A stretch of 64,000 bases of DNA from Massilia frigida (lineage in GTDB: Bacteria > Pseudomonadota > Gammaproteobacteria > Burkholderiales > Burkholderiaceae_D), in NCBI RefSeq assembly GCF_011682175.1, contig NZ_WHJG01000004.1:124001-188000 (forward strand), read 5' to 3'. The notes beneath the pieces were generated by a model. It worked only from the letters and a program-made list of their open reading frames with translations. It searched no databases and was not told where the DNA came from. Below, one piece after another: positions 4,249-21,198 of this stretch (position 1 is the first letter of the stretch; each line of letters opens with the position of its first letter). The position numbers were made by a program, and so were the translations under genes.

Positions 4249-4281
4249 TGCGTCAAGCGCGCGCGTTTGAGGTGGCGCAAG
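4249..4281 (+). repeat. Left flanking direct repeat (candidate attL)
   Basis: TGCGTCAA, seven variable bases, then CGTTTGAGGTGGCGCAAG matches 21166-21198 without gaps at 27 of 33 positions. It sits between the host coiled-coil gene and the first phage genes. It does not overlap the tRNA-Thr gene. Confidence 0.5.
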
Positions 4282-4350
4282 CGCCGCCGGCGGGTGTCGC
4301 CAGCCCGGCTAAAGGCTGTCCATGGAGAAAAATAGTAGCGACAGGAGGTC

Positions 4351-4578
4351 TCAGCGCTGTTGCATGGACGGAAAGGTACGCGCAGCACGCGCCGCCAGCA
4401 GGTCGATACTGGCCTTGGCGCGCCGCAGCAGTTCAGGGTCGGGTTGCAAATAGCCTTCGATGGTGCTGATCTGCCCGCGAAAGTAGCCGCTATCCCATAC
4501 ATCCGGACCCGTCAGGGCATCGGCGTGCCGGATCAGACTGCGCAGGGCCATGTTTCCCCGCTCGCAGGGTTGAATCAT
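4351..4578 (-). CDS. Small phage protein of PL operon
   Basis: The 75-residue product is of unknown function and contains no recognisable domain; it is rich in charged residues and predicted soluble. Its start overlaps the stop of the upstream gene by ATGA (4575-4578), so the two are translationally coupled and expressed from the leftward promoter PL under repressor control. It occupies the distal early-left position that in lambdoid phages holds recombination or host-takeover genes. Confidence 0.65.
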   Translation of the reverse strand: MIQPCERGNMALRSLIRHADALTGPDVWDSGYFRGQISTIEGYLQPDPELLRRAKASIDLLAARAARTFPSMQQR

Positions 4579-4898
4579 GCAAACATCGCCATGGCACGGT
4601 CATGCGCGAGGCGGTCGGCGCGCGCGGACAGGTGTTCGTCCATCGCGTCGCGGATGTGCGCCGCCAGCCGCGCCAGGTCGCACAGCTCGGTCGCATTCCA
4701 CCCTCCGGGCCGGTGCAAACGGGTGCCATCATGGCCGATGAAGTCGGCGCCCTGGGGACAGGTCACTTTCACCACCTGGTTGCCGGCCATCAGGCAATCG
4801 ACCCGCGTCGCCGCCAGTTGCGTCAGCTCTTCATCGAAGCCTTCGCCGACAAACATCGTCAATTTCATACCATGCCACATTGTTTGCATTACCGTCAT
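4575..4898 (-). CDS. Phage protein, first gene of PL operon
   Basis: The 107-residue product has no recognised family. It begins about 28 nt downstream of the predicted PL start point, with GGGGAG (4907-4912, minus strand) 8 nt before the ATG. Three cysteines and a GHDGTRLH segment are present but form no clear metal site. Its position, immediately after PL/OL, is that of lambda N, but it lacks the Arg-rich N-terminal motif of N-type antiterminators, so no such role is assigned. Confidence 0.65.
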   Translation of the reverse strand: MTVMQTMWHGMKLTMFVGEGFDEELTQLAATRVDCLMAGNQVVKVTCPQGADFIGHDGTRLHRPGGWNATELCDLARLAAHIRDAMDEHLSARADRLAHDRAMAMFA

Positions 4899-4932
4899 TC
4901 AGCGCGCTCCCCATATCGTTGAGACAGGTGAT

Positions 4933-4961
4933 ATATTAGTCTTACTAATGAATATTGTCAA
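4933..4961 (-). promoter_or_regulatory. PL promoter
   Basis: On the minus strand TTGACA (4961-4956) and TAATAT (4938-4933) are separated by exactly 17 bp. Both hexamers and the spacing are identical to those of PR. The operators overlap the -10 by four bases and the -35 by two, also as at PR. Confidence 0.85.
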
Positions 4962-4974
4962 TAGTCCAACTGAT
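4935..4974. promoter_or_regulatory. Left operators OL1 and OL2
   Basis: OL1 at 4935-4949 is a perfect dyad, ATTAGT CTT ACTAAT. OL2 at 4960-4974 is AATAGT CCA ACTGAT, 10 of 12 half-site bases. The centres are 25 bp apart, the same distance as OR1 to OR2. Confidence 0.85.
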
Positions 4975-5009
4975 ATATTTCGCCAAAGTGTTGTTTGTTT
5001 GAGCATAAA

Positions 5010-5033
5010 ACAGAAACCCCGCACACGGCGGGT
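5010..5033 (-). terminator. Terminator of the repressor gene
   Basis: Read on the minus strand, CCCGC (plus 5032-5028) pairs with GCGGG (plus 5022-5018) around a five-base loop and is followed by TTTCTGTTTTATG. It lies 51 nt beyond the repressor stop codon, before the PL operon. Confidence 0.7.
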
Positions 5034-5083
5034 TGGGGTTGCGGAAACAGGCAGGGCGCTCGGGGCAGGCTTGCTTGTTGGCC

Positions 5084-5878
5084 TCAGACGCGGCCCATCA
5101 GCGTGCGCGCTTCCTGCCGCACCACGCGTCCGACGATGATGCAGTCGCCGCCGCGGCAAGCACGCCGGTGGTAGGCCGGATCCGGATTCATGGATGCCAG
5201 ATACCACTCGCGGCCGTCGCGCACGAGGCGCTTGACCACGGCTTCGCCCTCGAAATTGACGGCGTAAAACTCGTTGTTGATGGGCTTGGTATCGGCAATA
5301 TTGATGACCACCACATCGCCTTCGATCATCAGCGGCCACATGCTGTCACCCTTGACGCTGATGGCCAGCAAGCATTGCGGCACCAGGTCGTTTTCCTCGA
5401 TGAAGCGGCGCGGCAGGTCGATCGTGCTGTCGGACGGATCCTCCTGCGACGCCTCGAAGCCCATCACGCCGGCGCGCAGCGTCAGGCTGACCTTCTTGAT
5501 GGGGATGTGCTCGGCCTGCTGCGCATCGACCGTGACGCGCTTGCCGACGATGCCGAAATCATGCTCGCGCGCCTGCGCCATGGCTATCGCATCCTTGGCG
5601 GCGGCAAAGTCATCGGCATGGGACGCCAGCGTCGAGCTGAACGCCGAGATCGGCACGCCCAGCAGTTTGGAGAACTTGATGGCGACGTCGATATTCAAGG
5701 GGATCTTCCCGTTGAGATATTGGTTCAAGGCGCTCTGGCCGAACTCCAGCTGGTTGGCGGCTGCTTCCTGGGACGCCGGCAGCCCTTGGCTGCGGCGCGC
5801 GTGTTGCCACTCAATGAAGAGTTGCTTGAGCTGCGCTGCTTCCGCGAGCTCGTGTTGGTTTAGGGGGAGGGCTGGCAT
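5084..5878 (-). CDS. CI-like phage repressor with S24 autoprotease
   Basis: This 264-residue protein should bind the ATTAGTnnnACTAAT operators and keep PL and PR silent. The N-terminal part (about residues 12-90) is a lambda-repressor-type helix-turn-helix domain (EAAANQLEFGQSALNQYLNG). The C-terminal half is a LexA/CI peptidase S24 domain: self-cleavage site Ala136-Gly137 in LRAGVMG, catalytic Ser179 in GDSMWP and Lys216 in EAVVKRL. All three are present, so RecA-stimulated cleavage after DNA damage is expected. An upstream in-frame start at 5914 would lie inside the operators, so the ATG at 5878 was chosen. It is transcribed divergently from cro. Confidence 0.92.
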   Translation of the reverse strand: MPALPLNQHELAEAAQLKQLFIEWQHARRSQGLPASQEAAANQLEFGQSALNQYLNGKIPLNIDVAIKFSKLLGVPISAFSSTLASHADDFAAAKDAIAMAQAREHDFGIVGKRVTVDAQQAEHIPIKKVSLTLRAGVMGFEASQEDPSDSTIDLPRRFIEENDLVPQCLLAISVKGDSMWPLMIEGDVVVINIADTKPINNEFYAVNFEGEAVVKRLVRDGREWYLASMNPDPAYHRRACRGGDCIIVGRVVRQEARTLMGRV

Positions 5879-5890
5879 AGCTCGCACAAT

Positions 5891-5953
5891 ATAAGGAAAA
5901 CTAATAAACATCAATTAGTCCGACTGTTGACAAACATCATTAGTAGGACTAAT
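5891..5953. promoter_or_regulatory. Right operators OR3, OR2, OR1
   Basis: Three 15-bp dyads are seen: OR3 5891-5905 (ATAAGG AAA ACTAAT, 10/12), OR2 5914-5928 (ATTAGT CCG ACTGTT, 10/12) and OR1 5939-5953 (ATTAGT AGG ACTAAT, 12/12). Centres are 23 and 25 bp apart, about two helical turns plus, which would allow side-by-side cooperative binding as in lambda. OR3 lies next to the repressor start and could mediate autoregulation. Confidence 0.87.
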
Positions 5954-5955
5954 AT
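5927..5955 (+). promoter_or_regulatory. PR promoter driving a leaderless cro
   Basis: A consensus TTGACA (5927-5932), a 17-bp spacer and TAATAT (5950-5955) precede the cro ATG at 5963. Transcription should begin at about 5961-5963, so the mRNA would start at or within two bases of the start codon and have no ribosome site. Confidence 0.85.
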
Positions 5956-5962
5956 AGTGCCT

Positions 5963-6196
5963 ATGAACTCAATCGCACACATCCGGGCCCGGCTCGGCGT
6001 TACCCAAGCCGTGATGGCGAAGGGGATCAATGTTTCTCAGGGCAATGTTTCCAACTACGAGCGCGGGCAATCCATGCCGCCCGACGTGGCGGCCCGGCTG
6101 ATCCGCTACGCGGCGTCCGTGGGCTGCACGATCAGCCACAACGATGTGTATGCGTCGTCGCACGGCCGCGCGCACGGAGACGCCCGCCGGGCCTGA
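5963..6196 (+). CDS. Cro-like repressor
   Basis: The 77-residue protein has a helix-turn-helix of the YdaS/Cro type (VTQAVMAKGINVSQGNVSNYERGQ). It is divergent from the S24 repressor and is the first gene of the rightward early operon, as Cro is in lambda. It should bind the same operators and favour lytic expression. The frame is open back to a TTG at 5927, but that TTG is the -35 box of PR; the ATG at 5963 is therefore the start. Confidence 0.88.
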   Translation: MNSIAHIRARLGVTQAVMAKGINVSQGNVSNYERGQSMPPDVAARLIRYAASVGCTISHNDVYASSHGRAHGDARRA

Positions 6197-6237
6197 TCCG
6201 GCTGTTCCGTTTTACCCGGTTTCACCCCAAGCCCAGC

Positions 6238-6258
6238 GCCATCGCCAGCAGCGATGGC
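6238..6258 (+). other. Strong RNA hairpin in cro-downstream leader
   Basis: GCCATCGC (6238-6245) and GCGATGGC (6251-6258) are perfect inverted repeats around CAGCA. No T-tract follows, so this is not a standard terminator. It could be an mRNA structure, a processing site or part of an antitermination signal. Confidence 0.5.
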
Positions 6259-6310: not shown

Positions 6311-6496
6311 ATGACTGTTCTACCGGAACTCAATCACGAGGCACGCCAGGTGCTCGCCATGGCATGTGCCTGGCGCGACAGCCGCAATGCCACCTTCGCC
6401 CTGCGCGGCGTCACCGCCGAGCTGATGCAGCTGCGCCACCGCCTCGATGGCGACGCCCTGGCCGACGCCATCGACAGCTACTGGAGGACAGCATGA
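6311..6496 (+). CDS. Small early phage protein
   Basis: This 61-residue, helix-rich protein has no recognised domain. The ATG at 6311 follows AAGGA at 6300-6304; the longer frame from 6254 has no ribosome site. Its stop overlaps the next start (ATGA, 6493-6496), so it belongs to the early replication operon run from PR. Confidence 0.65.
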   Translation: MTVLPELNHEARQVLAMACAWRDSRNATFALRGVTAELMQLRHRLDGDALADAIDSYWRTA

Positions 6497-6840
6497 GAGC
6501 CCTCTGGATCGATGCACTGCGCGCCAGCATCGTCAGCGCCCTGGCGGACGGCCCCACGCAAGTGATTCCGCTGGCGCAGCGGCTGGGCGTGGACGCCGAA
6601 CTGGTGCGCCAGCAATGCCTCCTGCTGTTTCGCGAAGGTGCTATCGCGCGTGATCCGCGCACCCGGCGCGCGCGCATGGTGTACAAGGCCGCCGCCAATG
6701 GGCAGGCCGCCGCCGAACACGACCCGCACCCGCTCCTGCACGTCCTGGCGGCCGAATGGAAGGGCCATCCTTTCCGCGATCCGCTGGTCGCCGCCCTGTT
6801 CGGTCCGGCGGGACAGCATACCAACCATAGCGCTATCTGA
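6493..6840 (+). CDS. Winged-helix-like early phage protein
   Basis: The 115-residue protein begins with a segment (ALADGPTQVIPLAQRLGVDAELVRQQCLLLFREGAIARD) that reads like a winged helix: helix, helix, recognition helix, then a basic wing with RTRRARMVYK. A DNA-binding role in the early region is therefore plausible, but the family is not identified. GGAGGA precedes the ATG. It is coupled to the upstream gene by ATGA and lies before the replication initiator. Confidence 0.65.
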   Translation: MRALWIDALRASIVSALADGPTQVIPLAQRLGVDAELVRQQCLLLFREGAIARDPRTRRARMVYKAAANGQAAAEHDPHPLLHVLAAEWKGHPFRDPLVAALFGPAGQHTNHSAI

Positions 6841-6881: not shown

Positions 6882-7733
6882 ATGGCAGGAGAATGGATCA
6901 AGATGCGCACCAATCTGTGGAGCGATCCGCGCGTGTCCAGGCTGTGCGACCTGACCGGCAAGGCCGAAGCGACGGTGGTCGGCGCGCTGTACTGGCTGTG
7001 GGCCACGGCCGACGAGCATACCCGCAGCGGTCACATGCCGGGTCTGAGCATGGCTGGCATCGACCGCAAGACCGGCATCGACGGCTTTGGCGCGGCGCTG
7101 CTGGCAGTGTGCTGGATCGATGATACCGAAGGCGGCATCACCCTGCTGCGCTTCGACGAACATAACGGTTCCTCGGCCAAGAACCGCGCCACCACCGCGC
7201 GCCGCGTGGCCAGTCATGCCGCCGGCGTACGCGCCAGAACACAGGCCGGCGGCGCCGTCGCGACGGCACTGGCCGATGATGGCGGCGACGCTAACGCCGC
7301 CGCCGTTAGTGCCGCGTTAGCTAAAGAAGAGAAGAGAAGAGAAGATGTAAACAGCCTTCCCCCAACCCCGGCGGTTTCTTCAAGTCCGCTTGTTGCAACG
7401 CCGGCCAAACGGCGCGCGTCGGGTGCCGTCTCGCTCGCGGCCTACCTTGAGCAATGCAAGCTGGCCGACGACAAGCCGATCCGCGCCGACGACGCGGTGT
7501 TCGACTACGCGGCCAAGGTGGGCGTGCCGACCGACTTCCTGCGCCTGCAGTGGCTCGAATTCAAGGAGCGCTATAGCCTGGACGGCGCGAAGCAGTACAA
7601 ATCGTGGCCCACCGTGTTCGCCAAATCGGTCAGGGGCAACTGGTTCCGCCTGTGGTACATCCAGCCCGACGGCGCTTACGCCCTGACCACCAGCGGCTTG
7701 CAGGCCCGGCGCCAGCACGAGGCGGGCGCTTGA
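6882..7733 (+). CDS. Phage replication initiation protein
   Basis: The 283-residue protein has an N-terminal domain (about 1-100) beginning WIKMRTNLWSDPRVSRLCDLTG and containing VVGALYWLWATADEHT, found in replication proteins of Burkholderiales prophages. A low-complexity Ala-rich linker follows, then a C-terminal domain (about 185-275) with PTDFLRLQWLEFKERYSLDG and a Trp/Phe-rich segment, similar in style to DnaT/primosomal domains. It directly precedes and overlaps a DnaB helicase, so it most likely loads that helicase at the phage origin. GGAGG lies just upstream of the ATG. The exact family is not certain. Confidence 0.78.
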   Translation: MAGEWIKMRTNLWSDPRVSRLCDLTGKAEATVVGALYWLWATADEHTRSGHMPGLSMAGIDRKTGIDGFGAALLAVCWIDDTEGGITLLRFDEHNGSSAKNRATTARRVASHAAGVRARTQAGGAVATALADDGGDANAAAVSAALAKEEKRREDVNSLPPTPAVSSSPLVATPAKRRASGAVSLAAYLEQCKLADDKPIRADDAVFDYAAKVGVPTDFLRLQWLEFKERYSLDGAKQYKSWPTVFAKSVRGNWFRLWYIQPDGAYALTTSGLQARRQHEAGA

Positions 7734-9076
7734 GCCGGCCCCTTTTCAGCATCACTGCCGAACAGGCCGTGCTGGGCGCCATCCTGGTCGACAACGCGGC
7801 GCTCGACAAGATTGCGACCCTGCTCGAACACGATTTTTACCGCGCCGACCATCGCCTGATCTACGCCGAAATGGTGCGCCAGGTGATGGACAACAAACGC
7901 GCCGACGCCATCACCCTGGCCGATACGCTCAAGGAGCGCGTGGCCGATTGCCTGCCTTATCTGTTTGCGCTGCAGGCCTCTGCCGCCAGCGCGGCCAACG
8001 TCGCCATGCACGCCGCGATCGTGCGCGACCGCGCCATGCTGCGCGCGCTCGACGCCTTCGGGATGGAAGCGCAGACGGAGGCCAACGGCGCGCTCGAACC
8101 GGCGCGCGTGGTGCTCGACCGCATGGCGCACAAGCTCGATGCGCTGGCTCTGAACAAGGAAGAGGGCGCGCCGCTGCACAGCGCCGAGCTGCTGGGCGGC
8201 TATGTCGAACTGCTGACCCGGCGCATGGATGGCCTGGTGCGCGCGGTACCGACCGGCTTTCGCGACCTTGACCGCCAGCTCGACGGCGGCCTGGAACGCG
8301 GCACCCTGTCGGTGCTGGCGGCGCGCCCCGGCATGGGCAAGACGGCCATGGGCCTGGCCATGGCGCGCAACGTGGCGCGCGAGGGAGCGGCCCTGTTCCT
8401 GTCGATGGAAATGAACCGCACCCAGATCAGCGACCGCAATATCGCGGCGCTGGGCGGCATCCCGGTGGCGTGGCTGCGCAATCCGCACGCGGGCGACGCC
8501 GCCACCTGGGGCAAGGTAGCGGCGGCGTGCGCGGCGAACGGAGAACTGAACCTGTACGTGGACGATGCGAGCAGCCTGTCGATGCTGGAGATCCGCGCCA
8601 AGGCGCGCGCCGTCAAGCGCCGCCACGGCCTCGATCTGCTGGTGATCGACCAGCTCAGTTTCATCAGCGGCGGCAGCAACGAGAACAAGGCCTACGACAT
8701 CGGCGAACACACGCGCGGCGCGGTGGCGCTGTCGAAGGAACTCGATTGCGCCGTGCTGCTGCTGGCGCAGCTGAACCGCGACTGCGAGAAGCGCCAGAAC
8801 CGGCGTCCCATCATGGCCGACCTGGCGATGTCGGGATCGATCGAGCAGGATGCGGCCAACGTCCTGTTCCTGTACCGCGACGAGATGTACAACCCGCTCA
8901 CGCGCGAGCGCGGCGTGTGCGAGGTCATCGCCGGCAAGCAGCGCCAGGGCGCCACCGGCACGGTCGGGCTGCATTACATCGGCAGCCAGACCAGGTTCGA
9001 GGATCTGCAGCACGCATGGCAGGCGCCATACCAGAGCGACGCCGGCGCCGCTCCACACCTGCGCGGTTTCGATTAA
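7730..9076 (+). CDS. Replicative DNA helicase (DnaB family), phage-encoded
   Basis: This 448-residue protein is a full-length DnaB homologue. It has the N-terminal helical domain (SITAEQAVLGAILVDNAALDKI), Walker A (ARPGMGKTAMG), Walker B (LDLLVIDQLSFI) and the H3/H4 motifs (LLAQLNRDCEKR, MADLAMSGSIEQDAANVLFLYRD). It unwinds DNA at replication forks with the preceding loader. The chosen start is TTG at 7730, which overlaps the upstream stop (TTGA) and follows GAGG; the longer open frame back to 7604 encodes nothing DnaB-like. Retention of an intact helicase is unusual for a pure tail-particle locus. Confidence 0.93.
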   Translation: MSRPLFSITAEQAVLGAILVDNAALDKIATLLEHDFYRADHRLIYAEMVRQVMDNKRADAITLADTLKERVADCLPYLFALQASAASAANVAMHAAIVRDRAMLRALDAFGMEAQTEANGALEPARVVLDRMAHKLDALALNKEEGAPLHSAELLGGYVELLTRRMDGLVRAVPTGFRDLDRQLDGGLERGTLSVLAARPGMGKTAMGLAMARNVAREGAALFLSMEMNRTQISDRNIAALGGIPVAWLRNPHAGDAATWGKVAAACAANGELNLYVDDASSLSMLEIRAKARAVKRRHGLDLLVIDQLSFISGGSNENKAYDIGEHTRGAVALSKELDCAVLLLAQLNRDCEKRQNRRPIMADLAMSGSIEQDAANVLFLYRDEMYNPLTRERGVCEVIAGKQRQGATGTVGLHYIGSQTRFEDLQHAWQAPYQSDAGAAPHLRGFD

Positions 9077-9181: not shown

Positions 9182-9529
9182 ATGATCGTTCAATCCAAGC
9201 ACACGGCCCCCGTGGCACAACAGCCGGCGTCGCCGTTCGAGCATGCCATGTCGGTCTGGACGCGCTGGATCGCGCTCAAGGACAACCAGGTTTCGCAAGG
9301 CTGGGGCCATCCGCAGGACACCAAGGATTTCATGCGCGCCGGCGAAGCGGTCGAGGTCATGATCAACGACCTGCCGCGCGTGGAATGGTGGGCTGTGCGC
9401 AAGGCGCGCGGGGTGGCCACGGTGTGGCGTTTTCCCGATTTGTCGCTGCCTGATGCACTGGCGCGCGCCGAACAAATCCTCACGCCAAAAATGAGAAATC
9501 ACATTGCCACGCGCCGCTTCTTCCATTAG
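9182..9529 (+). CDS. Phage protein at the early/late junction
   Basis: The 115-residue protein has a Trp-rich middle (VWTRWIALKDNQVSQGWG, VEWWAVRKARGVATVWRF) and a helical C-terminus. GAGGAG precedes the ATG. It sits where lambdoid phages carry the late regulator (Q), between helicase and late genes, and the DNA after it is rich in inverted repeats and a terminator. A late-regulator role would fit, but I see no zinc motif or other Q signature, so it stays hypothetical. Confidence 0.6.
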   Translation: MIVQSKHTAPVAQQPASPFEHAMSVWTRWIALKDNQVSQGWGHPQDTKDFMRAGEAVEVMINDLPRVEWWAVRKARGVATVWRFPDLSLPDALARAEQILTPKMRNHIATRRFFH

Positions 9530-9591
9530 TATGGTGGTGTTAGATGTGATTTCTGCGTCAGAAGCGACGGCAGTAAAATCACCCTGACGCA
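9495..9591. promoter_or_regulatory. Inverted-repeat cluster at early/late boundary
   Basis: GAAATCACAT (9495-9504) is the exact inverted repeat of ATGTGATTTC (9544-9553). AAATCAC recurs at 9576-9582. TGCGTCAG (9554-9561) is the exact inverted repeat of CTGACGCA (9584-9591). The first arm lies inside the end of the 9182-9529 gene. The cluster immediately precedes a terminator, as late-gene control sites do. Confidence 0.55.
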
Positions 9592-9595
9592 CAAG

Positions 9596-9626
9596 GCCCG
9601 CTCCGCAAGGACAGCGGGCTTTTTCG
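9596..9626 (+). terminator. Terminator before the late genes
   Basis: GCCCGCT (9596-9602) pairs with AGCGGGC (9613-9619), followed by TTTTT. It separates the early operon from the tail genes, in the place of lambda tR'. Confidence 0.8.
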
Positions 9627-9687
9627 TTTGCGCGCGCGCTTTTCGGCGCCGCGTTTTTGAACCACAACACGGATCGACAGGTAAATC

Positions 9688-10038
9688 ATGGGCATGGAAG
9701 CGATGGTATCGGCGGTGCTCTGGCCCCTGACCGCGGGACGCGTCTATTTGGACGTCGCCCCCTCCGGCGCGGTGCGGCCGTTCATCACTTTGCGCGCCGC
9801 TGGCGGCACGCCCATCACGTTCCTGGACGGGACCATCCCTGCCAAGGAGATCGTGCGCGTGGAGGTCTCCGTATGGGGCAGCGGGCGCGCGGACGCCGCT
9901 GACGTGGGCAAGAAGGTGGAAGACGCCCTGCGCGCCGCCACGGCCCTGCAAACGACGGTGCTCACCGGCCGCAGCGCCATCATCGACAGCGCGACCCAGA
10001 TACCCGTCATGCTGCAGGAATTCGAGATATTCGTCTGA
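9688..10038 (+). CDS. Tail terminator / tail completion protein (DUF3168-like)
   Basis: The 116-residue protein reads like the DUF3168 family (LWPLTAGRVYLDVAPSGAVRPFITLRAAGGTPITF, then a beta-rich second half ending VMLQEFEIFV). These proteins cap the finished tail tube and normally provide the head-joining face. It is the first gene of the late block and precedes the tube protein, as in lambda and HK97. Its survival without head genes fits a tail that is terminated but not attached to a capsid. Confidence 0.75.
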   Translation: MGMEAMVSAVLWPLTAGRVYLDVAPSGAVRPFITLRAAGGTPITFLDGTIPAKEIVRVEVSVWGSGRADAADVGKKVEDALRAATALQTTVLTGRSAIIDSATQIPVMLQEFEIFV

Positions 10039-10160: not shown

Positions 10161-10805
10161 TTGGCCGTATCTCTCCCTAATGGCATCGTTCTCGCTCTGG
10201 CAACTGCGTATGCCGCACCCATCGCCGTTACCGCGGCAAGCAACGGCGCCGAAGCCGTCCTGACGGTGGCCAATGCCCTGGTCGCCGGCGACTACGTCGA
10301 GTTCAGCTCCGGCTGGAGCCGCGCGAATGGCCGCGTGTTCCGCGTCAAGGCGCCGACCCCGACCACCATCGTGGCCGAAGGACTGGACACCACGTCCACC
10401 TCGCTGTTCCCGATCGGTTCGGGCGTGGGCACGATCCGCAAGATCAATAGCTGGACCCAGATCACCCAGATCATGGGTTGCACCAGCTCGGGCGGCGAGC
10501 CGCAGTACCAGACCTACTCTTTCCTGGAGCAGGACTTCGACAGCCAGATTCCGACCACCACGTCGGCCCAATCGCTGGCCCTGGAAATCGCCGACGATCC
10601 GTCGCTGGCCGGCTACCAGGCGTTGAAGAACGCGTCGCAAGCGCGTAACCCGACGGCGCTGCGCGCCACCCTGCCGGCTGGCGGCTTCATTCTCTACAAC
10701 GGCGTGTTCGCCTTCGACGAGACGCCATCGCTGACCAAGGGCAGCCTGATGGCCGTCAAGGCCGGCATGGCACTGCAAGGCCGTCCGGTCCGTTACATCG
10801 CTTAA
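10161..10805 (+). CDS. Major tail tube protein
   Basis: The 214-residue, beta-rich protein (MAVSLPNGIVLALAT, then GDYVEFSSGWSRANGRVFRVK) matches siphophage tail tube proteins in length, composition and position, directly before the tail assembly chaperones and tape measure. It should polymerise into the hollow tail. The start is TTG at 10161, preceded by GGAAAGG at 10148-10154; no ATG fits the N-terminus. Terminator-like hairpins flank it on both sides. Confidence 0.82.
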   Translation: MAVSLPNGIVLALATAYAAPIAVTAASNGAEAVLTVANALVAGDYVEFSSGWSRANGRVFRVKAPTPTTIVAEGLDTTSTSLFPIGSGVGTIRKINSWTQITQIMGCTSSGGEPQYQTYSFLEQDFDSQIPTTTSAQSLALEIADDPSLAGYQALKNASQARNPTALRATLPAGGFILYNGVFAFDETPSLTKGSLMAVKAGMALQGRPVRYIA

Positions 10806-10892: not shown

Positions 10893-11258
10893 ATGACCAA
10901 GACAAACGCCAAACAAAAATTCTCCCTGAACGTCGCGCCGACCTTCAAGGCGCCGGTGACGATCACGATTCCCGGCGGCGGCGAAGCTGACATCATGTTT
11001 ACCTTCAAGCACCGCACGCGCGACGAATTCAAGGCCTTCACCGAAAGCCTGAAAGCAAGCGCCGATGCCGACGACGGCACCAAGGGCGACGGTCCCAAGG
11101 ATACCGACGTGCTGCTCGACATCGCCAGCGGCTGGGACCTGGACGATCCGTTCGACGCCGTCTCGCTCGACAAGCTGGTGCAGCGTTACATGGGCGCGGC
11201 CCAGGCCGTTATCGGCGCCTACTTCGGCGAACTGACGGGCGCGCGCGCAAAAAACTGA
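10893..11258 (+). CDS. Tail assembly chaperone, upstream frame (gpG-like)
   Basis: The 121-residue protein sits between tube and tape measure and has the acidic, beta-then-helical make-up of tail assembly chaperones. These proteins coat the tape measure during tail polymerisation. The last codons are GCA AAA AAC TGA, so the stop directly follows a canonical A AAA AAC slippery heptamer (11249-11255). Most ribosomes should stop here; a fraction should shift -1 into the frame that ends at 11569. No strong ribosome site is seen. Confidence 0.82.
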   Translation: MTKTNAKQKFSLNVAPTFKAPVTITIPGGGEADIMFTFKHRTRDEFKAFTESLKASADADDGTKGDGPKDTDVLLDIASGWDLDDPFDAVSLDKLVQRYMGAAQAVIGAYFGELTGARAKN

Positions 11259-11569
11259 TCGCGCTTGCAGAGCACCTGTACCGCACAGCCCCGACCGCCG
11301 ACGAGTTGGAGGCGGCCGGGCTGACGGCGCAGGACTTTGCAGGCGAAGCGGTCACGCCCTGGCCGGACAACCTGGCAGCGTTCTCGCTGTTTCAGTTCAT
11401 GCGCACGCAGTGGCGCATCGGGATGGCCGGGCCGACCGGCCTGGACTACGGTGTGCTGTTCCGCAAGATGGACCGGATGGGCTTGAGCCCGGACGAGTAC
11501 GACCAGCTCGAGTGCGACATCCAGATCATGGAAGTGGCCGCACTGAACTGTATTTTCGCAAAAACCTAG
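10893..11569 (+). CDS. Frameshift product: extended tail chaperone (gpGT-like)
   Basis: A -1 shift on A AAA AAC at 11249-11255 continues reading CTG ATC GCG from 11255 in a frame that stays open to the stop at 11567-11569. The fusion would be 121 + 104 = 225 residues. The downstream part (LTAQDFAGEAV to MEVAALNCIFAKT) resembles the DUF1799 family found as the T extension of HK97-type chaperones. That frame has no credible start or ribosome site of its own. The arrangement copies lambda gpG/gpGT, where the T domain recruits the tail tube protein. Confidence 0.82.
11249..11255 (+). promoter_or_regulatory. Programmed -1 frameshift site A AAA AAC
   Basis: The heptamer is in the correct phase (xxA AAA AAC) relative to the upstream frame and is followed at once by TGA. 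The -1 frame is continuous with the DUF1799-like sequence. Confidence 0.85.
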
Positions 11570-14600: not shown

Positions 14601-17030
14601 GCCTCTAATGGCACCATGTCCATCGCGGGCTGGATTGCCGCGGGCATGGCGTTGTCGAAATCGCTCTATGCGAAGGGCTGGGATGCGCAGAACGGGTCGA
14701 TCAGCTCGGTGGGCCCGGTGGCACCTTTCAATGCGCCAATGCTGCACCTGAACAAGGGGCTGCAAAAACTCGGGTTTGACAACACCACGGCCAATATGCT
14801 TTCGGGCGCCTCCACCGTGTCGCGCCTCTTCGGCCGCAAGAACCCCGAGGTGAAAGACTTCGGCATCGAAGGCACGTTCGGCGCGTCCGGGTTCGATGGG
14901 AAGACGTACCAGGACATCCTCGAAAAAGGCGGCATCTTGCGCAAAAGCAAGCGCTACACGAAGGATGGGGCGCTCGACGCCGCCAGTGAAAGCACCTTCG
15001 ACGGCACGATCAAGAACCTGATGGCGGCCGTGAAAGGCTTTGGCGCGCAGTTGGGCATTGAGGCGACGCAGATCGACAGCTACACCAAGTCGATCAAGCT
15101 CGCCCTCACCAGCGACGAGGCCAAGAACAAGGAATTGATCGTGTCCCTGTTCGGCGACATCGGCAACGAGCTGGCCACCTTGCTGCTGCCCACGATTGCA
15201 GGCCTGGGCAGGGATGGCGAAACGGCGGCGGCGACGCTGCAGCGCATCGCGACTGAATTCGTCGCCATCGATGCCGCTCTGGCCTCGGTGGGGGACGCCT
15301 TTGGGGCGGTCGGCATGGGTTCGCTGGAAGCGCGCCAGCGCTTGCTCGACCTCAGTGGCGGCATGGAATCATTCGGCAAGGATATCGCCTTCTTCGGCCA
15401 GAATTACCTGACCGAATCGGAACGCCTGGCGCCGGTCGCCAAGACGGTCGAGGCGGCGCTCGATAGCCTTGGCATGTCCCAGATCAAGACCCGCGACCAG
15501 TTCAAGGAAGCGATCCTCGGCACGCGCGATGCGACGGGAGAACTGGTGGGGGGCCTGGACCTGACCACCGAGGCCGGTGCCAAGGCTTACGCCGGCCTGA
15601 TGAACATCCAGGAAGCGTTCGCCCAACTGCATCCGGCGGCCCAGAAAATCGCCGACAAGCTGCGCACGCCGGACGACATCAAGGCCGAGCGCGATGGGTT
15701 GAATGATCAGATCGATGAACTGACGATGACGCCTGCCGCGTATAGCGACAAGCAGCGTATAAAACAGCGTGCCAAAGACGCTGAGCTGATCGATCCGAGC
15801 AACAGGGATCTGTTCGACCAGGTGCAGAACGGGCGCATCGCCGATGCGGCGAACAAGAAGATGTTTGCCGACGCCGAGAAGCTCGCCAAGATCAGCCAGG
15901 GCATTCAGGATCAGATCGACACCTACGAACGAGCAAGCATGACGCCCACGCAGGTGCGTGAGCGTGAAATCGCCGGGATGGACAAGAGCACGGTGGAGCT
16001 GTACGACTCCCTGGCAGCGCTCAAGCAGTCGGCGACCGCGGCCGATGCGCTGAAATCGGCCAACAAGAGCATTCAGGACCAGATCGACACCTACGAGAAA
16101 GCGAGCATGACGCTCGTGCAGGTGCGCGACCGTGAAATCGCTGGGATGGACCAGACCACGGTGAAGCTGTATGACTCCCTGGCAGTGCTCAAGCAATCGT
16201 CGGCCGCGGCCGATGCCCTGAAATCGGCCAACAAGGTCATCCAGGACCAGATCGACAGCATGCTCAGGGCACGCATGACGCCGGACCAATTGCGCGCCGA
16301 GGACACCAAAGGCATGAAGCAGGAGACCATCGACCTGTACGACAAGCTGGCCGCCATGAAGCTGGCGGAGCAGCAGGCGCAGGCCACGCGCCAGGCCGAG
16401 GAGGTGCGCCTGGCGGACCAGAAACGCCTGGCCGAAGAAGCCCAGCGCGCAGCGGAACAGTTGCGCGATGCCTGGAAGTCGGTCACCGACGCCATCTTGG
16501 ACGAGGTCAAGCGGCTGCGCGGCTCGATCGATGACGCCTCGGTGAACTCGGTGGCGCGCGCCCAGTCGGCCTTCACCGTCGCCACCGCGCAGGCGCGCTC
16601 GGGCGACATGGACGCGAGCAAGATGCTGCCGAGCCTGTCGCAGAAACTGATCGAGCTGACCGAAGCGAACGCGACCTCGCTGCTCGAACTGCAGCGGGTG
16701 CGCGCACAGACGGCGGCCAGCCTGGCCGTCACCGGCGCGCTGCTCGGCGCCACGATGGGCTTGAATGCGCCGCAGGCAGGCCCCGCCGCCGCGCCGAACG
16801 CGCAGGGCGGCATGCCGAAGGCGGGCGCGTATCAGCCGCCGATGCAAGTGCCGCAAAACTGGGGCTTGCAAGGCGGCGCGGGTGCCAATCCGGATGCCCA
16901 GAGGCTGCAGGCCGAGGTGGAGGCGCTGCGCGCCGAAACGCGCGCCACGGCCACTCATACCGCCAAGCTGGTGTCGATGCTGAGCCGATTGATTGTCGAT
17001 GACGTACTGAAAACAAAGGAGACCGCATGA
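11604..17030 (+). CDS. Tail tape measure protein
   Basis: This 1808-residue protein is the largest in the element. It is mostly alpha-helical and Ala/Gln/Lys-rich, with hydrophobic segments near residues 95-165 and 340-400 and long coiled coils, as expected of a tape measure that sets tail length and is ejected through the tube. At the usual 0.15 nm per residue the tail would be about 270 nm long, which is inference. Three 56-residue tandem repeats starting at residues 1434, 1490 and 1546 each begin I-Q-D-Q-I-D and include REIAGMD..TV.LYDSLA. The frame is intact over 5.4 kb, so it is under selection or recent. Confidence 0.93.
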   Translation: MPDITNNTTIKLDTSQVEAGLKRIDEALARTGRNLENLGDGDGMGKLGEDAQAAAAAFSAGAGTVSDAVEKQSASMADFAGKLGEVTSASELCAEALLAVSAAAAPLLVQLNGAAQATSFLDGVLGKAKASLIGLGVSLLEKVSFEAMVEGINAAITGLADLDDMAQRTGASVETLSRMQKVAQMTGQEFGEVDRVLSRLAGNMGGVGEGADKVKDALKRLGVSATEASGELRDPAEVLIEATTKLQGYSESVAKTVLQQDLLGISGAKLKPYLNDVVEHIGKFSGTSEASAAAATAFNQNMGKLQVHLGELGTSVAENLLPSLNRLLEKVNELASSEEFKTFLKVAGAGARLFAVGVEILVSALVAATKIAAGFATAFGAAPALCGMAGKGLSALTGLFTDSSAAISTNGGLWSTLDKNLGDVAESTESASAWLDKLQVAAVEVLTAFGAWQIGTWLREEFEIVRIAALAFVGDVLVGFDYISSNSKKAFLYLETAWSYSLGNMSVSFASFGDWIANGLGKMGAKRIAGEVREYANSLRATGAEHHANAASALKSAAAETEAYEARKTSTQARIDEMMQFERLKGKIVEPTSGGSEPKPQVPAPVVKTGKSTEASDYSKITASIRDRIAASELELKTSENATESEKLLLKLRQDRAVGTVVLTDKQMELVKAQLAELGAKEKLLKLRAAEKDVGDYIEQSTAARVASTKSLALEYSMYGKSSDARELANVAVRSEAELQKKLTDMRKEDKPITDDMLERMRREKDLRDEIETATLAQTKALAYASTLAGENQRFAVESILDERERAAALLEIEADTWRERIALAGEGTDAQKKLQTQFDQWYKNQSAKPMIEEWKKTVQQYEELFHKGFTDTLINGKEGWKSFTKSLVSTFKTTVADQIYKMFIKPIVLQMVGNMVGGPGSGGTGGFDFSSAGQSIYKAFSAAASSGGGLVNMGKTFFTTLRGTPAVSTPPVGHHVIPGATEPVTSGTPTPTTGGGLSASNGTMSIAGWIAAGMALSKSLYAKGWDAQNGSISSVGPVAPFNAPMLHLNKGLQKLGFDNTTANMLSGASTVSRLFGRKNPEVKDFGIEGTFGASGFDGKTYQDILEKGGILRKSKRYTKDGALDAASESTFDGTIKNLMAAVKGFGAQLGIEATQIDSYTKSIKLALTSDEAKNKELIVSLFGDIGNELATLLLPTIAGLGRDGETAAATLQRIATEFVAIDAALASVGDAFGAVGMGSLEARQRLLDLSGGMESFGKDIAFFGQNYLTESERLAPVAKTVEAALDSLGMSQIKTRDQFKEAILGTRDATGELVGGLDLTTEAGAKAYAGLMNIQEAFAQLHPAAQKIADKLRTPDDIKAERDGLNDQIDELTMTPAAYSDKQRIKQRAKDAELIDPSNRDLFDQVQNGRIADAANKKMFADAEKLAKISQGIQDQIDTYERASMTPTQVREREIAGMDKSTVELYDSLAALKQSATAADALKSANKSIQDQIDTYEKASMTLVQVRDREIAGMDQTTVKLYDSLAVLKQSSAAADALKSANKVIQDQIDSMLRARMTPDQLRAEDTKGMKQETIDLYDKLAAMKLAEQQAQATRQAEEVRLADQKRLAEEAQRAAEQLRDAWKSVTDAILDEVKRLRGSIDDASVNSVARAQSAFTVATAQARSGDMDASKMLPSLSQKLIELTEANATSLLELQRVRAQTAASLAVTGALLGATMGLNAPQAGPAAAPNAQGGMPKAGAYQPPMQVPQNWGLQGGAGANPDAQRLQAEVEALRAETRATATHTAKLVSMLSRLIVDDVLKTKETA

Positions 17031-17941
17031 GCGGAATGAAGGTCATTAAACCGACCACCATCAGCGGCGCGATGCTCACCAGCAGCAGCGTGGCCGAACC
17101 GGATGTGGGCGAGACGGTGTGGAATCCGGCCACCAGCTACGGCGCCGGCGCCGTGGTGATCCGCACCACCACCCACATGAAATATGAACGCGTCGCCGCC
17201 GGCGCCAGCGCTACCTTGCCGGAGAACGATAGCGTCAACTGGCTGCCGGCCGGACCGACCAACAAGTGGGCGATGTTCGACCGCAAGATCGGCACCACCA
17301 CCAAGGCCGGCGCCAGCCTGACGGTGGTGATGCGGCCGGGCGGTATTTCTGGCCTGGGCATGCTGGAGCTGATCGGGCGCGAAGCGATCGTCACGCTGCG
17401 CGATGCGCCAGGCGGCAAGGTGGTCTACAACCGCACCATCAATCTGGACGGCACCTTGATCACCAGCGTCTACGACTGGTTCTTCCTGGACTACGAGCAG
17501 CTGAGCGACTTCGTGCTGACCGACTTGCCGCAGCATTACTCGGCGGGCGAACTGAGCGTGCAGCTCAAGGGCACCACCGGCGTGGCGGTCGGCGTGCTGC
17601 AAGTGGGGCAAGTGCTGGCGATCGGGCGCACCACGGGCGGCTCGACCGTCGGCATCATCGACTACAGCCGCAAGGAGAAAGACCGGTTCGGCAACTTCGA
17701 TGTGGTCGAAGGCGCCTTCAGCAAACGCGGCACCTTGCAGGTGGTGACCGAGGCGTCCGAATTCAACAAGCTGTTCCGCTCGCTGGCGGCACTGCGCGCG
17801 ATTCCCTGCATCTACATCGGCACCGACCAGATCGGTTTCGAACCGATGATTAATTACGGCTTCTACAAAGACTTTTCGATGGTGGTGGCCTATCCGCACC
17901 ACCACCTTTGCAACCTTGAAATTGAAGGACTTTCCCAATGA
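17027..17941 (+). CDS. Tail tip / distal tail protein with sugar-binding-like motif
   Basis: The 304-residue protein overlaps the tape measure stop (ATGA) and so is in the distal-tail position. Residues about 28-60 (ETVWNPATSYGAGAVVI, then KYERVAAG) resemble the aromatic core of chitin-binding type 3 modules. The rest is beta-rich and resembles conserved hypothetical tail proteins of Burkholderiales prophages. It is the only candidate for the tail hub, because no lambda M, L, K, I or J homologue follows. Confidence 0.65.
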   Translation: MSGMKVIKPTTISGAMLTSSSVAEPDVGETVWNPATSYGAGAVVIRTTTHMKYERVAAGASATLPENDSVNWLPAGPTNKWAMFDRKIGTTTKAGASLTVVMRPGGISGLGMLELIGREAIVTLRDAPGGKVVYNRTINLDGTLITSVYDWFFLDYEQLSDFVLTDLPQHYSAGELSVQLKGTTGVAVGVLQVGQVLAIGRTTGGSTVGIIDYSRKEKDRFGNFDVVEGAFSKRGTLQVVTEASEFNKLFRSLAALRAIPCIYIGTDQIGFEPMINYGFYKDFSMVVAYPHHHLCNLEIEGLSQ

Positions 17942-18744
17942 CGATCACTGCCATTCCACCACTGGACCGCACCGCGCCGACATTTCGTGCCGACTGCGAC
18001 ACCTACTTCGCCACCAGCATCCCCAACTTCACCACGGAGATCAATGCGCTGGCGACCGACCTGAGCGGCAGACAGGACATCGCCAGCAAGGCCGCCATCA
18101 ACGCGGCCACGTCTGCCGAGACCGCGACGAAAAAGGCCGCGGACGCCGCTGGCAGTGCGAGCAGCGCCGACACCAGTGCGGTCAACGCCGCCACCAGCGC
18201 CGCCAATGCGCTGGCCTCGGCCGGCACCATCGGCCAGGCTGCCGCCTTTTCCGATGCTAATCCGGTGGTCAAGGGCAGCACCGATCCGACCAAGCAGCTC
18301 AAGATCGAGTGCGACATGCTGATCCCGGCCGGCTCGACCGTGACGCTGACGGCACCGGCGGTCAGCGGAACCATTGCGACGCTGAGCGACCTGCAGGAGC
18401 TGATGCGCTCGATGGTGTTCTACGACAATGGAGCAAGTACCGCAGTCAATTACGCCAATGGTGGCACCCAGCGCGTGGCGCCGGCCTCGGGCGCAAAGAC
18501 ACTGAGTTTTACCAACTGGCCCGCCGCCGGGAAGCAGGCGGTGCAGTTTCTGGAGCTGGTGAACATCGGCCTCGGCGGTACACCAGCCTGGCCTGCCGGC
18601 GCGCGCTTCATCCGCAACGATGGCGTGCTCCAGCCGACGGCCGGCGCGGCAAATATCAACTGGCAGGGGAGCGGCACCGATTATGTGATGGTATCGACGC
18701 GCGACGGCGGCACCACGCTGATCATTTCCGTTCAGCGGGGTTGA
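17938..18744 (+). CDS. Tail fibre protein, Ala-rich coiled-coil shaft
   Basis: The 268-residue protein overlaps the previous gene (ATGA, 17938-17941). Residues about 50-100 are an Ala/Ser/Thr-rich helical region (INAATSAETATKKAADAAGSA) of the kind that forms trimeric fibre shafts. The C-terminal half is beta-rich with Gly/Asn/Trp turns, like a receptor-binding tip. It probably contacts the target cell surface. Confidence 0.72.
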   Translation: MTITAIPPLDRTAPTFRADCDTYFATSIPNFTTEINALATDLSGRQDIASKAAINAATSAETATKKAADAAGSASSADTSAVNAATSAANALASAGTIGQAAAFSDANPVVKGSTDPTKQLKIECDMLIPAGSTVTLTAPAVSGTIATLSDLQELMRSMVFYDNGASTAVNYANGGTQRVAPASGAKTLSFTNWPAAGKQAVQFLELVNIGLGGTPAWPAGARFIRNDGVLQPTAGAANINWQGSGTDYVMVSTRDGGTTLIISVQRG

Positions 18745-18746: not shown

Positions 18747-19409
18747 ATGACACCGATCGATGCGCAACGTGCCTTGTTCTACGGGAAGCGCTCACGTACG
18801 CTCGTGACCCAGACATTCACCAGCAGCGGGACGTGGTACGCCCCGTTGACAACGACACGCCTGGAATCATTGACTGGAAAAGGTGGTGATGGCGTCCCGG
18901 GAGGAGGTTCTTATCGTACTGATCCAAACTCGATTGTCGCCATTGTGCAGACCACTTCTGGTTCAGGCCCAACAGCGGGGATCGCTCGTTGGGAGCAACT
19001 CGCGCCATACGCAAACGCGGCGGTGAACGCACTGAATGCCGGGAACAGCACTTATTCAGGTGTTGCCATTTCTCAATGGACCACGCCGGGATTTAGCTAC
19101 GGCATCTATCCTGGCACCGTGATTACTGTCACAGAGCCTGTGATACCAGGTAGCGCGGTATGGACCGCCTCTGGCTCAGCAAGCAGCAGTGGGCCGATTT
19201 CGAGTAATGGGGGCCTGACTCTGCGGTGGGAAACACCGTATCCGGCAACGACCGGGCAGGCGACCGTGGCATTTGGCATCAGCTTCCCGGGTGGCCTTGG
19301 CGGTGGGGCCAATCCGGTCGTTTACGGCGCCATGGGGGTTTCACCGGGTTACGGATATGCGTTCACAGTACCCCCTGGCGGGTCTATCAGCTTCACCTAC
19401 TATTTTTAA
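18747..19409 (+). CDS. Tail fibre tip / receptor-binding protein
   Basis: The 220-residue protein starts MTPIDAQRALFYGKRSRT two nt after the fibre gene and is Gly/Ser/Thr/Pro-rich and beta-structured (GGDGVPGGGS, GGLGGGANPV, VPPGGSISFTYYF). Such Gly-rich, hydrophobic-ended proteins occur as adhesin tips of phage fibres. Its codon and base use is visibly more AT-rich than its neighbours, suggesting that this host-range module was exchanged recently. The function is inferred from position and composition. Confidence 0.65.
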   Translation: MTPIDAQRALFYGKRSRTLVTQTFTSSGTWYAPLTTTRLESLTGKGGDGVPGGGSYRTDPNSIVAIVQTTSGSGPTAGIARWEQLAPYANAAVNALNAGNSTYSGVAISQWTTPGFSYGIYPGTVITVTEPVIPGSAVWTASGSASSSGPISSNGGLTLRWETPYPATTGQATVAFGISFPGGLGGGANPVVYGAMGVSPGYGYAFTVPPGGSISFTYYF

Positions 19410-19505
19410 CGGCTAGCCATATTGCTGCGCTTTCCATGACTGCTCCTGCAATCGACTGCGTTTGCCTCCCGCCGCCGCGCGCGCTAATTCAACCGGATCA
19501 ATTCC

Positions 19506-19787
19506 ATGACCAATAGTCCACAACGCATCGTTGATATGCGCATTCCCCTCACCTGGTTGCTGACCTCCGCGTCAACCATACTTTCCCTGCTATGCCTCAC
19601 CCTGTGGACGGTTGCCGGCCAGTCCAACAAGCTCGAACAGATCGCCGGCACCAGCGCCAAGATGGAAAAGCGGCTCGACGATCGCGACGAGAAGACCGAG
19701 GCCATGCGTGAACGCATGTTCAACTTCGACCGCACCACCGACAACCTCAAGCTGCGTGTCGATGCGCTGGAACGGGCGCGCAAATGA
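19506..19787 (+). CDS. Small phage membrane protein with coiled coil
   Basis: The 93-residue protein has one N-terminal membrane span (about residues 14-36, LTWLLTSASTILSLLCLTLW) followed by a charged coiled coil (KLEQIAGTSAKMEKRLDDRD). It is translationally coupled (ATGA) to the holin gene, so it likely belongs to lysis, perhaps as a holin partner or antiholin. Confidence 0.68.
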   Translation: MTNSPQRIVDMRIPLTWLLTSASTILSLLCLTLWTVAGQSNKLEQIAGTSAKMEKRLDDRDEKTEAMRERMFNFDRTTDNLKLRVDALERARK

Positions 19788-20005
19788 TCCTGCTCGATGA
19801 CTGGCGCGCCGTGCTCGCCAAAGCCTGGAGCCTGAAATTCACCGCCGCCGCCGGCCTGCTCGGCGCCGCCGAAGTGTATATCGCCATCGCCCAGCCAGCG
19901 GGCGTGCCGAACGGCGTGTTCGCCGGCATCGGTGCGCTGGTGTCGGTGCTGGCCTTCGTGGCGCGCCTGATGGCGCAGGAGGAACTGCGCGATGGCCAGC
20001 ATTAA
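19784..20005 (+). CDS. Holin
   Basis: The 73-residue protein has two predicted membrane spans (about 20-36 and 43-62) and a short charged C-terminus (RLMAQEELRDGQH). Length, topology and position directly before a lysozyme are those of small phage holins, which open the inner membrane to trigger lysis. It overlaps both neighbours. Confidence 0.78.
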   Translation: MILLDDWRAVLAKAWSLKFTAAAGLLGAAEVYIAIAQPAGVPNGVFAGIGALVSVLAFVARLMAQEELRDGQH

Positions 20006-20447
20006 GCAGCGTGCCGGCTGGTGCGCGATCGCGGTGACGATGGTCGGCGGCTTCGAGGGCTTGCGCCTGGCCGCCTATGCCGATCCGGTCGGCATTCCCA
20101 CCATCTGCTTCGGCGAAACGAAGGGCGTGCGCCTCGGCCAGCGCGCCACGCCCGCGCAGTGCCAGGCCATGCTGGCCGACTCGCTGGCCATTGCCAACCG
20201 CGCGGTCGACGCCTGCATCCGCGCGCCCCTGGGCGATTACCGGCGCGCCGCGCTGGTCTCGTTCGCCTACAACGTCGGGCAGGAAAACTTATGCGGCTCC
20301 ACGCTGGCGCGCAAGATGAATGCCGGCGATGCACTCGGCGCCTGCAACGAATTTCCACGCTGGAACCGGGCGAAGGGTATCGTCTTGCCTGGCCTGACCA
20401 GGCGCCGCGCCACCGAGCAGGCGATGTGCCTCGGGGCCTTGCCATGA
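19992..20447 (+). CDS. Endolysin, GH24 (T4-type) lysozyme
   Basis: The 151-residue enzyme cleaves peptidoglycan. The GH24 catalytic triad is present: Glu in GGFEGLRL, Asp in AYADPVG and Thr in PTICFGET. The weakly hydrophobic N-terminus (about residues 10-20, GWCAIAVTMVGG) could act as a signal-anchor-release segment, so export may not need the holin pore. It overlaps the holin and Rz genes. Confidence 0.92.
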   Translation: MASIKQRAGWCAIAVTMVGGFEGLRLAAYADPVGIPTICFGETKGVRLGQRATPAQCQAMLADSLAIANRAVDACIRAPLGDYRRAALVSFAYNVGQENLCGSTLARKMNAGDALGACNEFPRWNRAKGIVLPGLTRRRATEQAMCLGALP

Positions 20448-20809
20448 ACGCGCTCTTGTGGAAACCCATCGCGGCGGTCCTGCTGCTGGTGCTGGGCATC
20501 GCCTGCGTGGCCAGCGGCACCGGCTGGTTCCTGGCGCGGCGCGAGCGCGACCTCGCCCGTGCCGAGCTGTCGGCCGAACGCGACAAGCGTGCCGCCTGCG
20601 GTGCGGCGCTCGACCAGCAAAATAGCGCGCTGGCGGAACTGGCCGAGCAGAAAGCAGCCGCCGACCTGCGCGGACTGGCTGCCCAGCAAGTCGCCGCTGC
20701 CCAAGGCAAGCGTTTCGACCAGGCGCTGGCGCAGGTGCGCACTGCCAGGGCCACTACCTGCACCGAAGCCATGCCTGCCGTCAACATGATCCTGGAGTCC
20801 ATCCGATGA
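20444..20809 (+). CDS. Rz-like inner-membrane spanin
   Basis: The 121-residue protein has an N-terminal membrane anchor (about residues 9-30, IAAVLLLVLGIACVASGTGW) and a long charged, Ala-rich periplasmic coiled coil. This is the build of Rz i-spanins, which join Rz1 to fuse inner and outer membranes at lysis. The start ATGA overlaps the lysozyme stop. Confidence 0.85.
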   Translation: MNALLWKPIAAVLLLVLGIACVASGTGWFLARRERDLARAELSAERDKRAACGAALDQQNSALAELAEQKAAADLRGLAAQQVAAAQGKRFDQALAQVRTARATTCTEAMPAVNMILESIR

Positions 20810-21096
20810 GTTCACCTTCCTTTCCTGCTGGCACGCGCCTGCTTGCACTGGCGATGCTGACGGGGGTGCCGATCGCGCTGGCCGGATGCGGCACCGCAAC
20901 GCAGGCGATGCACACCGTCCGCGTGCCGGTGCGCTCGCCCTGCATAGTCGCGTTGCCGGCGCGCCCGCTGTTCGCTACCCAAACCCTCATGCCGGACGCC
21001 AGCGACGGCGAAAAGGTGCTGGCCATCGCGCGCGACCTGCCGCTGCACCTCAAGTACGAGAGTGCACTCGAAGCCGCCATGGTAGCCTGCCTGTAA
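20806..21096 (+). CDS. Rz1-like outer-membrane lipoprotein spanin
   Basis: The 96-residue protein has a lipoprotein signal peptide with lipobox LAGC (Cys28), then a short Pro-containing mature region. It overlaps the end of Rz by ATGA rather than being nested fully inside it. Together they form the spanin pair of a Gram-negative host. It is the last gene of the element. Confidence 0.85.
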   Translation: MSSPSFPAGTRLLALAMLTGVPIALAGCGTATQAMHTVRVPVRSPCIVALPARPLFATQTLMPDASDGEKVLAIARDLPLHLKYESALEAAMVACL

Positions 21097-21165
21097 GCGG
21101 CCGGCTTGCGGCCATCCCGCGCCCGCCTGCCACCGCATCCGCACCATCTTAAGCCTGCGCCGACC

Positions 21166-21198
21166 TGCGTCAATAACGCACGTTTGAGGCAGCGCAAG
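21166..21198 (+). repeat. Right flanking direct repeat (candidate attR)
   Basis: TGCGTCAA, seven variable bases, then CGTTTGAGGCAGCGCAAG aligns without gaps to 4249-4281. It lies 69 nt after the Rz1 gene in a 262-bp stretch (21097-21358) that has no other gene or clear signal. Confidence 0.5.

Follow-up and report, generated by a model that had tools for sequence, protein, structure and literature searches.

A headless prophage of Massilia frigida with conserved replication genes as a candidate F-type tailocin locus

The window analysed here is a stretch of 64,000 nucleotides from the 7.8-Mb genome of Massilia frigida (contig NZ_WHJG01000004.1, positions 124,001 to 188,000). A former prophage of about 17 kb sits between its tRNA-Thr gene (3469) and a catalase gene (21938); this element encodes an S24 repressor, Cro, a replication initiator and DnaB as well as the proteins of a non-contractile tail and of lysis. 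Judged from its sequence, the locus is in our opinion probably a domesticated prophage which acts as a selected F-type tailocin and has kept its replicon. This reading is favoured because the same headless gene order is shared by three genomes, all with a single junction, the genes are under purifying selection and the fibres have been exchanged; the candidate F-type tailocin proposed in the initial annotation of the window was thereby strengthened.

Gene assignments were based on PHROG and Pfam matches (Table 1). From the left, two small leftward genes, the S24 repressor, a Cro-like gene, two small genes, the initiator, DnaB and a gene of 115 amino acids (aa) are followed by the tail terminator, the tube, two chaperone frames, the tape measure and a phrog_6278 protein, and the right end consists of two fibre genes, a 93-aa protein, holin, endolysin, Rz and Rz1. 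A slippery heptamer (A AAA AAC) lies at 11249 within the chaperone overlap and is present in Massilia mucilaginosa too. Among the frames scanned in 4230-21152, no match to head (portal, capsid), terminase, connector, integrase or sheath proteins was obtained, and only 158 bp separate the stop of the 115-aa gene (9529) from the tail terminator (9688). The locus is headless, carries its own lysis genes, was kept by selection after head loss and has diversified its receptor-binding parts, as expected of an F-type tailocin. The integrase, terminase and head genes of a temperate virion-forming prophage were not found among these frames; nor was any integrase, packaging or capsid-interference match that would point to a satellite of the phage-inducible chromosomal island type, with short family-less genes remaining. 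The initial annotation had described a headless prophage at 4249-21198 with tail, lysis, immunity and replication genes and open frames throughout. Its bounds fall on the two copies of an imperfect direct repeat (27 of 33 positions identical, the best of 60 Markov-shuffled comparisons being 22), all four gene groups are in place (Rz and Rz1 by order and sequence, fibre 1 by a weak match, fibre 2 by position, the others by profile matches), and every frame is open, including the 1808-aa tape measure.

An identical headless gene order was found in three genomes: the window genome, M. mucilaginosa (CCM 8733), whose element occupies the same FBPase/catalase site, and the IMG/VR contig 2844200831_000004, presumably from an isolate genome by the form of its name. 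The last is close to the window element in repressor (98% identity), DnaB (96%), tube (98%) and tip protein (95%); its tape measure, at 42-48% identity, has been exchanged and is nevertheless open for 1723 residues. At the junction (9492-9653), 159 of 162 positions are invariant across the three elements, with one extra base in M. mucilaginosa. The simplest reading of one shared junction is a single head loss before the elements separated, so that the time since this loss is at least as long as their divergence. A search of other Massilia genomes for this gene order, which the initial annotation had recommended, found it in M. mucilaginosa, and relatives with the same genes plus head genes, a sign of simple recent deletion, did not occur in the collections searched. 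Related tube genes were present in 41 of 392 genomes of the family; 11 of 12 regions of 20 kb around such genes contained terminase or portal genes and one lay at a contig edge. In IMG/VR, six of 150 loci, representing the three elements, had this early module and no head gene, although no verdict was possible for many loci that were distant or short. All six headed relatives within the genus carry terminase and portal genes upstream of the tail terminator. A headed prophage also resides in the window genome itself (contig C173; L015-L017; tube 79%), and its repressor is partly similar to that of the element (50% over 133 residues).

Two headed prophages hint at where the head module was lost. 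Each has a weak DNA match to the late-control block (71-77% identity, E 0.001 and 3e-4) that directly follows its homologue of the 115-aa gene and precedes the terminase gene, suggesting that the excised head module once lay between this block and the tail terminator. The layout, in which a promoter-like and a terminator-like signal follow the 115-aa gene, resembles lambdoid late control by a Q-type antiterminator, but the gene itself has no Pfam family and no PHROG match below E 0.2.

Selection after head loss was evident from 15 genes compared over the three elements, none of which has an internal stop. The ratio of non-synonymous to synonymous substitution rates (dN/dS; the 61-aa gene was excluded from these counts) in the three pairs was 0.04-0.10 for the tube, 0.07-0.24 for the chaperones, 0.10-0.13 for the tip, 0.05-0.13 for the repressor, 0.14-0.19 for DnaB, 0.16-0.20 for the initiator and 0.15-0.37 for the endolysin. 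Between the window genome and M. mucilaginosa, host genes had a synonymous rate (dS) of 0.31 and dN/dS of 0.09, and the gene groups of the element, terminator and fibres excepted, had dS of 0.21-0.37. When neutral change of 0.12 substitutions per site was simulated, the tape measure acquired a mean of 15.6 stops and no run out of 300 was free of them; nine genes together acquired a mean of 30 stops (minimum 13 in 300 runs). Since neutral change leaves many stops where we saw none together with low dN/dS, the element has worked since head loss, and drift is practically excluded.

The receptor-binding parts followed another pattern. In all three pairs, fibre 1 has a conserved N-terminus and an exchanged C-terminus, and the exchanged fibres are intact. 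M. mucilaginosa has a second fibre cassette. It is made up of the final 27 tip-gene codons, a different fibre 1 (319 aa) and a gene of 121 aa, and is flanked by two endolysin genes, one truncated and one full. The phrog_6278 protein had no sequence match in PDB. Its predicted structure (mean pLDDT, the predicted local distance difference test, 87.8) gave no Foldseek match at E ≤0.001, the best being the monocin cap (2.2e-3), the monocin tube and the phage T1 tip; in a second structural comparison, carbohydrate-binding-like jelly rolls ranked first (Z up to 11.1). The model tentatively suggests a tip protein with a carbohydrate-binding-like jelly-roll fold.

In the genus, the tRNA-Thr/catalase site was read in 16 of 17 genomes (window genome, G000; M. 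mucilaginosa, G007; and 14 others, all but G013). The full headless element was present in two, a remnant of its repressor end in five (G002, G016, G003, G009 and G004; L131-L135), and nothing of it in nine. The remnants keep the repressor, the 61-aa gene, the neighbouring 115-aa gene and some neighbours, and their losses are wholesale deletions rather than frame decay, except for a broken initiator stub in G002. Their stand-alone repressors are 87-95% identical, with pairwise dN/dS mostly 0.06-0.25, and are under selection, perhaps for immunity. The seven trace-bearing species form one clade of the host tree. Vertical descent from their common ancestor was considered and rejected, as the repressor tree conflicts with the host tree: the latter joins the window genome with G002 and G007 with G003, whereas the former places G007 with G000 and G002. 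Likewise, repressor dS between G007 and G003 was 0.35 against a host dS of 0.15, and between G007 and G000 it was 0.22 against 0.31. This placement of the G007 repressor suggests that the locus probably moved between species, and lateral transfer into the G007 line appears the likelier history, although the overall dS values of element and host are alike. A tail that is missing from some lines and was kept or regained in others is as expected of a costly weapon. No clean empty site was obtained: the repeat is found at both ends in the window, at neither in three outgroups, only at the left in G016, G002 and G004 and only at the right in G007, with degenerate right copies (25/33) in G003 and G009. 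A coiled-coil gene (3638-4222), which adjoins tRNA-Thr and has the left repeat in its upstream region, occurs in the five remnant species and not in M. mucilaginosa.

How such a tailocin would work can be outlined from the gene content. The repressor carries Ala-Gly, Ser and Lys residues, assigned by eye, which we take to be those of self-cleaving S24 repressors, and operator-like palindromes (ATTAGTnnnACTAAT) cover both the rightward early and one leftward promoter-like site. DNA damage would lead to self-cleavage of the repressor and turn on the early genes, whereupon initiator and DnaB would copy the locus in place, because no integrase for excision is available. Late transcription would start from the block at 9504-9618, read through its terminator and enter the tail and lysis genes. 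Cell lysis would then free flexible headless tails of about 270 nm, if each tape-measure residue accounts for 0.15 nm, and these would bind other bacteria via the fibres and kill them, probably by membrane depolarisation.

The replication genes deserve separate consideration. The initiator was matched in 26 of the 392 family genomes, of which the window genome and M. mucilaginosa were the only two with >66% identity. Within it, 31 bases are invariant in the three elements amid an otherwise variable stretch and may form an origin; origins of lambdoid phages lie inside initiator genes. As initiator and DnaB are under selection across three genomes, they are not leftovers, which argues for a lasting role. 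In rhizoviticin of Allorhizobium vitis VAR03-1, deletion of the DnaA-like or the DnaB gene abolished killing and lowered tail and lysis transcription; its authors regard the mechanism as an open issue and place the locus at an early evolutionary stage (PMC10811719). They also state that replication-related genes were not found in other tailocin loci (PMC10811719). The view of the initial annotation that such genes are odd in a tailocin needs correcting in that rhizoviticin offers a precedent. We tentatively suggest, as a possibility still short of a preferred explanation, that the Massilia locus is a self-amplifying tailocin: initiator, helicase and origin would be kept by selection because in-place copying multiplies the transcription of tail and lysis genes or turns it on, the replicon serving as a gene-dosage device and the head-facing cap being freed from constraint.

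This cap, the tail terminator, was only 59-64% identical among the headless elements though the adjoining tube was 96-98% identical, and the three were closer to one another than to their best matches elsewhere (50-54%). Its dN/dS was 0.61-0.68 among the headless elements, whereas 150 comparable pairs from other loci had a median of 0.21 and reached at most 0.46. These 150 pairs were all at least 55% identical, a filter chosen after a first, unfiltered result; they are not independent, their 60 locus sequences were not all verified for head genes, and the headless values come from three sequences. Among themselves, the headed prophages of the genus had a more constrained terminator. Loss of the head as binding partner could account for the raised value; alternatively, terminators may have been exchanged between unseen headless lines. 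If the raised value holds with more genomes, it would be a sequence mark separating headless-tail loci from headed prophages.

Several results weigh against a selected F-type tailocin. In the unfiltered comparison (154 pairs, dS 0.15-1.0), median terminator dN/dS was 0.55 and 62 of 154 pairs reached 0.61, hence no contrast. Since its tube, chaperone and tip values were implausibly high as well, we judged that saturated and poorly aligned pairs dominated that run; because it showed no contrast, the raised terminator dN/dS is a lead rather than a proof. Besides the terminator, three parts were less constrained: the fibres, with dN/dS of 0.42-0.56, Rz1, with 0.51, and the tape measure, with 0.35 between two elements. 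Promoter and terminator predictions are weak (6 promoter-like signals where 3.0 were expected, and 21 terminator-like ones where 15.0 were expected), and these signals carry weight because they are conserved, not because they match a consensus. Particles, induction and killing are predictions, and selection shows some function after head loss, not which one. Finally, five of the seven species with prophage traces at the site kept only the repressor end, with replication, tail and lysis genes gone, which shows that the locus is dispensable.

These losses, the broken initiator stub and the absence of integrase and head are what a decaying prophage would present, its head deleted and the remainder drifting toward loss. 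We regard this as unlikely: the 15 genes are stop-free in all three elements with dN/dS of 0.04-0.24 in repressor, initiator, DnaB, tube, chaperones and tip, where neutral change of equal depth would leave many stops, one old junction is common to all, and the exchanged fibres are intact. Decay in relatives, named beforehand as evidence against a tailocin, was seen as loss of the tail in five of seven species, but not as a broken frame in any compared gene of the three tail-bearing copies. It is very improbable that the element is a tail donor whose tails join the heads of a headed prophage in the same cell and alter its host range. Headed prophages whose tails are related to that of the element (tube 78-79%) do exist in both the window genome and M. 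mucilaginosa, and the C-terminus of fibre 1 in M. mucilaginosa is 61% like that of fibre 1 in the window genome's headed prophage; however, headed prophages have tails of their own, the terminator, which would need to fit the head, is the least constrained small tail gene, and own lysis and replication genes would be superfluous. Equally little credit can be given to a device that controls lysis or a cohabiting prophage, with the tails secondary. Five species keep the repressor end alone, and monocin of Listeria is reported to act in coordination with a prophage of the same cell (PMC6872733), but such a role leaves the strong selection on tube, chaperones and tip and the exchange of fibres unexplained.

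Two further observations concern single genes. The tape-measure gene contains a 168-bp unit in three tandem copies at 15893-16257, the third detected only in part, and the leftward gene pair (4351-4898), behind a repressor-like operator, is kept in M. mucilaginosa and has no family match.

Table 1. Features of the element, in window positions (HTH, helix-turn-helix)
Feature	Position	Strand	Evidence or remark
Left copy of imperfect direct repeat, putative old attachment site	4249..4281		repeat comparison
75-aa gene, without family match	4351..4578	-	89% in M. mucilaginosa
107-aa gene behind repressor-like operator	4575..4898	-	89-94% in two other elements
Operator-like ATTAGTnnnACTAAT over leftward promoter-like site	4935..4949		motif
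CI-like repressor, HTH and S24 peptidase	5084..5881	-	Peptidase_S24, E 1.8e-19
Two operator-like sites over rightward early promoter-like site	5914..5953		motif
Cro-like HTH protein	5963..6196	+	HTH match
61-aa gene	6311..6496	+	kept in tail-less relatives
115-aa gene (early), weak winged-helix matches	6493..6840	+	also in tail-less relatives
Replication initiator	6882..7733	+	phrog_2509, E 1.6e-41
Candidate origin inside initiator gene	7315..7345		31 invariant bases with CGTTAG and purine run
DnaB-like helicase	7733..9076	+	phrog_19, E 5.9e-95
115-aa gene, putative late-regulator position	9182..9529	+	homologues in headed prophages
Late-control block and head-loss junction	9494..9653	+	inverted repeat, promoter-like 9504-9532, terminator-like 9602-9618
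Tail terminator	9688..10038	+	phrog_347, E 2.1e-8
Major tail (tube) protein	10161..10805	+	phrog_584, E 1.4e-70
Tail assembly chaperone, first frame	10893..11258	+	profile match
Tail assembly chaperone, -1 frame extension	11240..11569	+	profile match; slippery site 11249
Tape measure, 1808 aa	11604..17030	+	profile match
Putative tip protein, family phrog_6278	17027..17941	+	profile match
Fibre 1, N-terminus conserved, C-terminus exchanged	17938..18744	+	weak match phrog_3279, E 0.0013
Fibre 2	18747..19409	+	position alone; 33% in M. mucilaginosa
93-aa protein, lysis region	19506..19787	+	comparison with relatives
Holin	19784..20005	+	E 2.5e-9
Endolysin	19992..20447	+	E 1.2e-55
Rz-like spanin	20444..20809	+	gene order and sequence
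Rz1-like lipoprotein	20806..21096	+	gene order and sequence
Right copy of direct repeat	21166..21198		repeat comparison

F-pyocins of Pseudomonas aeruginosa and monocin of Listeria are flexible, non-contractile headless tails, as is the predicted Massilia product, and differ from it in their regulators. The headed prophages of the genus (G016, G000 contig C173, G007 contig C392, G002 and G003) resemble the element in tube (57-84%), tip (71-78%) and a similar order up to the fibre and lysis end, but possess terminase and portal. Acidovorax phage Aval (OP131589) has the same tail order of terminator, tube (47%), two chaperones and a 5.5-kb tape measure, together with a phrog_6278-like protein (28% in part); unlike the element, it is a complete phage that encodes terminase, portal, protease and capsid and has different early genes. 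IMG/VR files the three headless elements (L165, L166 and L167) as viral contigs, so virus collections contain tailocin-like loci filed as viruses. Our literature search found no paper joining Massilia with tailocins, the sole "phage tail-like" match concerning sponge symbionts by its title, and a sample of the literature on related genera made no mention of tailocins. F-type tailocins are few, with F-pyocin, monocin and rhizoviticin named in PMC10811719, and the Massilia locus adds a candidate to them.

The closest counterpart is rhizoviticin (PMC10811719). It is likewise a headless F-type tail locus beside a tRNA gene; it retains a LexA-like repressor, an initiator, DnaB and the tail and lysis genes, has lost the head genes and all but a remnant of the integrase, and its relatives carry headed prophages with the same tail module. 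It differs in being alphaproteobacterial and in an early region that also has RuvC and a sigma-factor-like gene, the likeness being one of gene plan; moreover, rhizoviticin was shown to be a tailocin by experiment (PMC10811719), whereas the Massilia locus is a candidate predicted from sequence. A headless F-type locus which keeps its replicon was therefore known already, and the Massilia locus is best read as joining that kind. New in our sequence comparisons are the replication genes under selection across genomes and the raised dN/dS of the terminator. While its authors view rhizoviticin as an early stage (PMC10811719), the Massilia replication genes are under selection across three genomes, and this locus makes the question why a tailocin should replicate a testable one.

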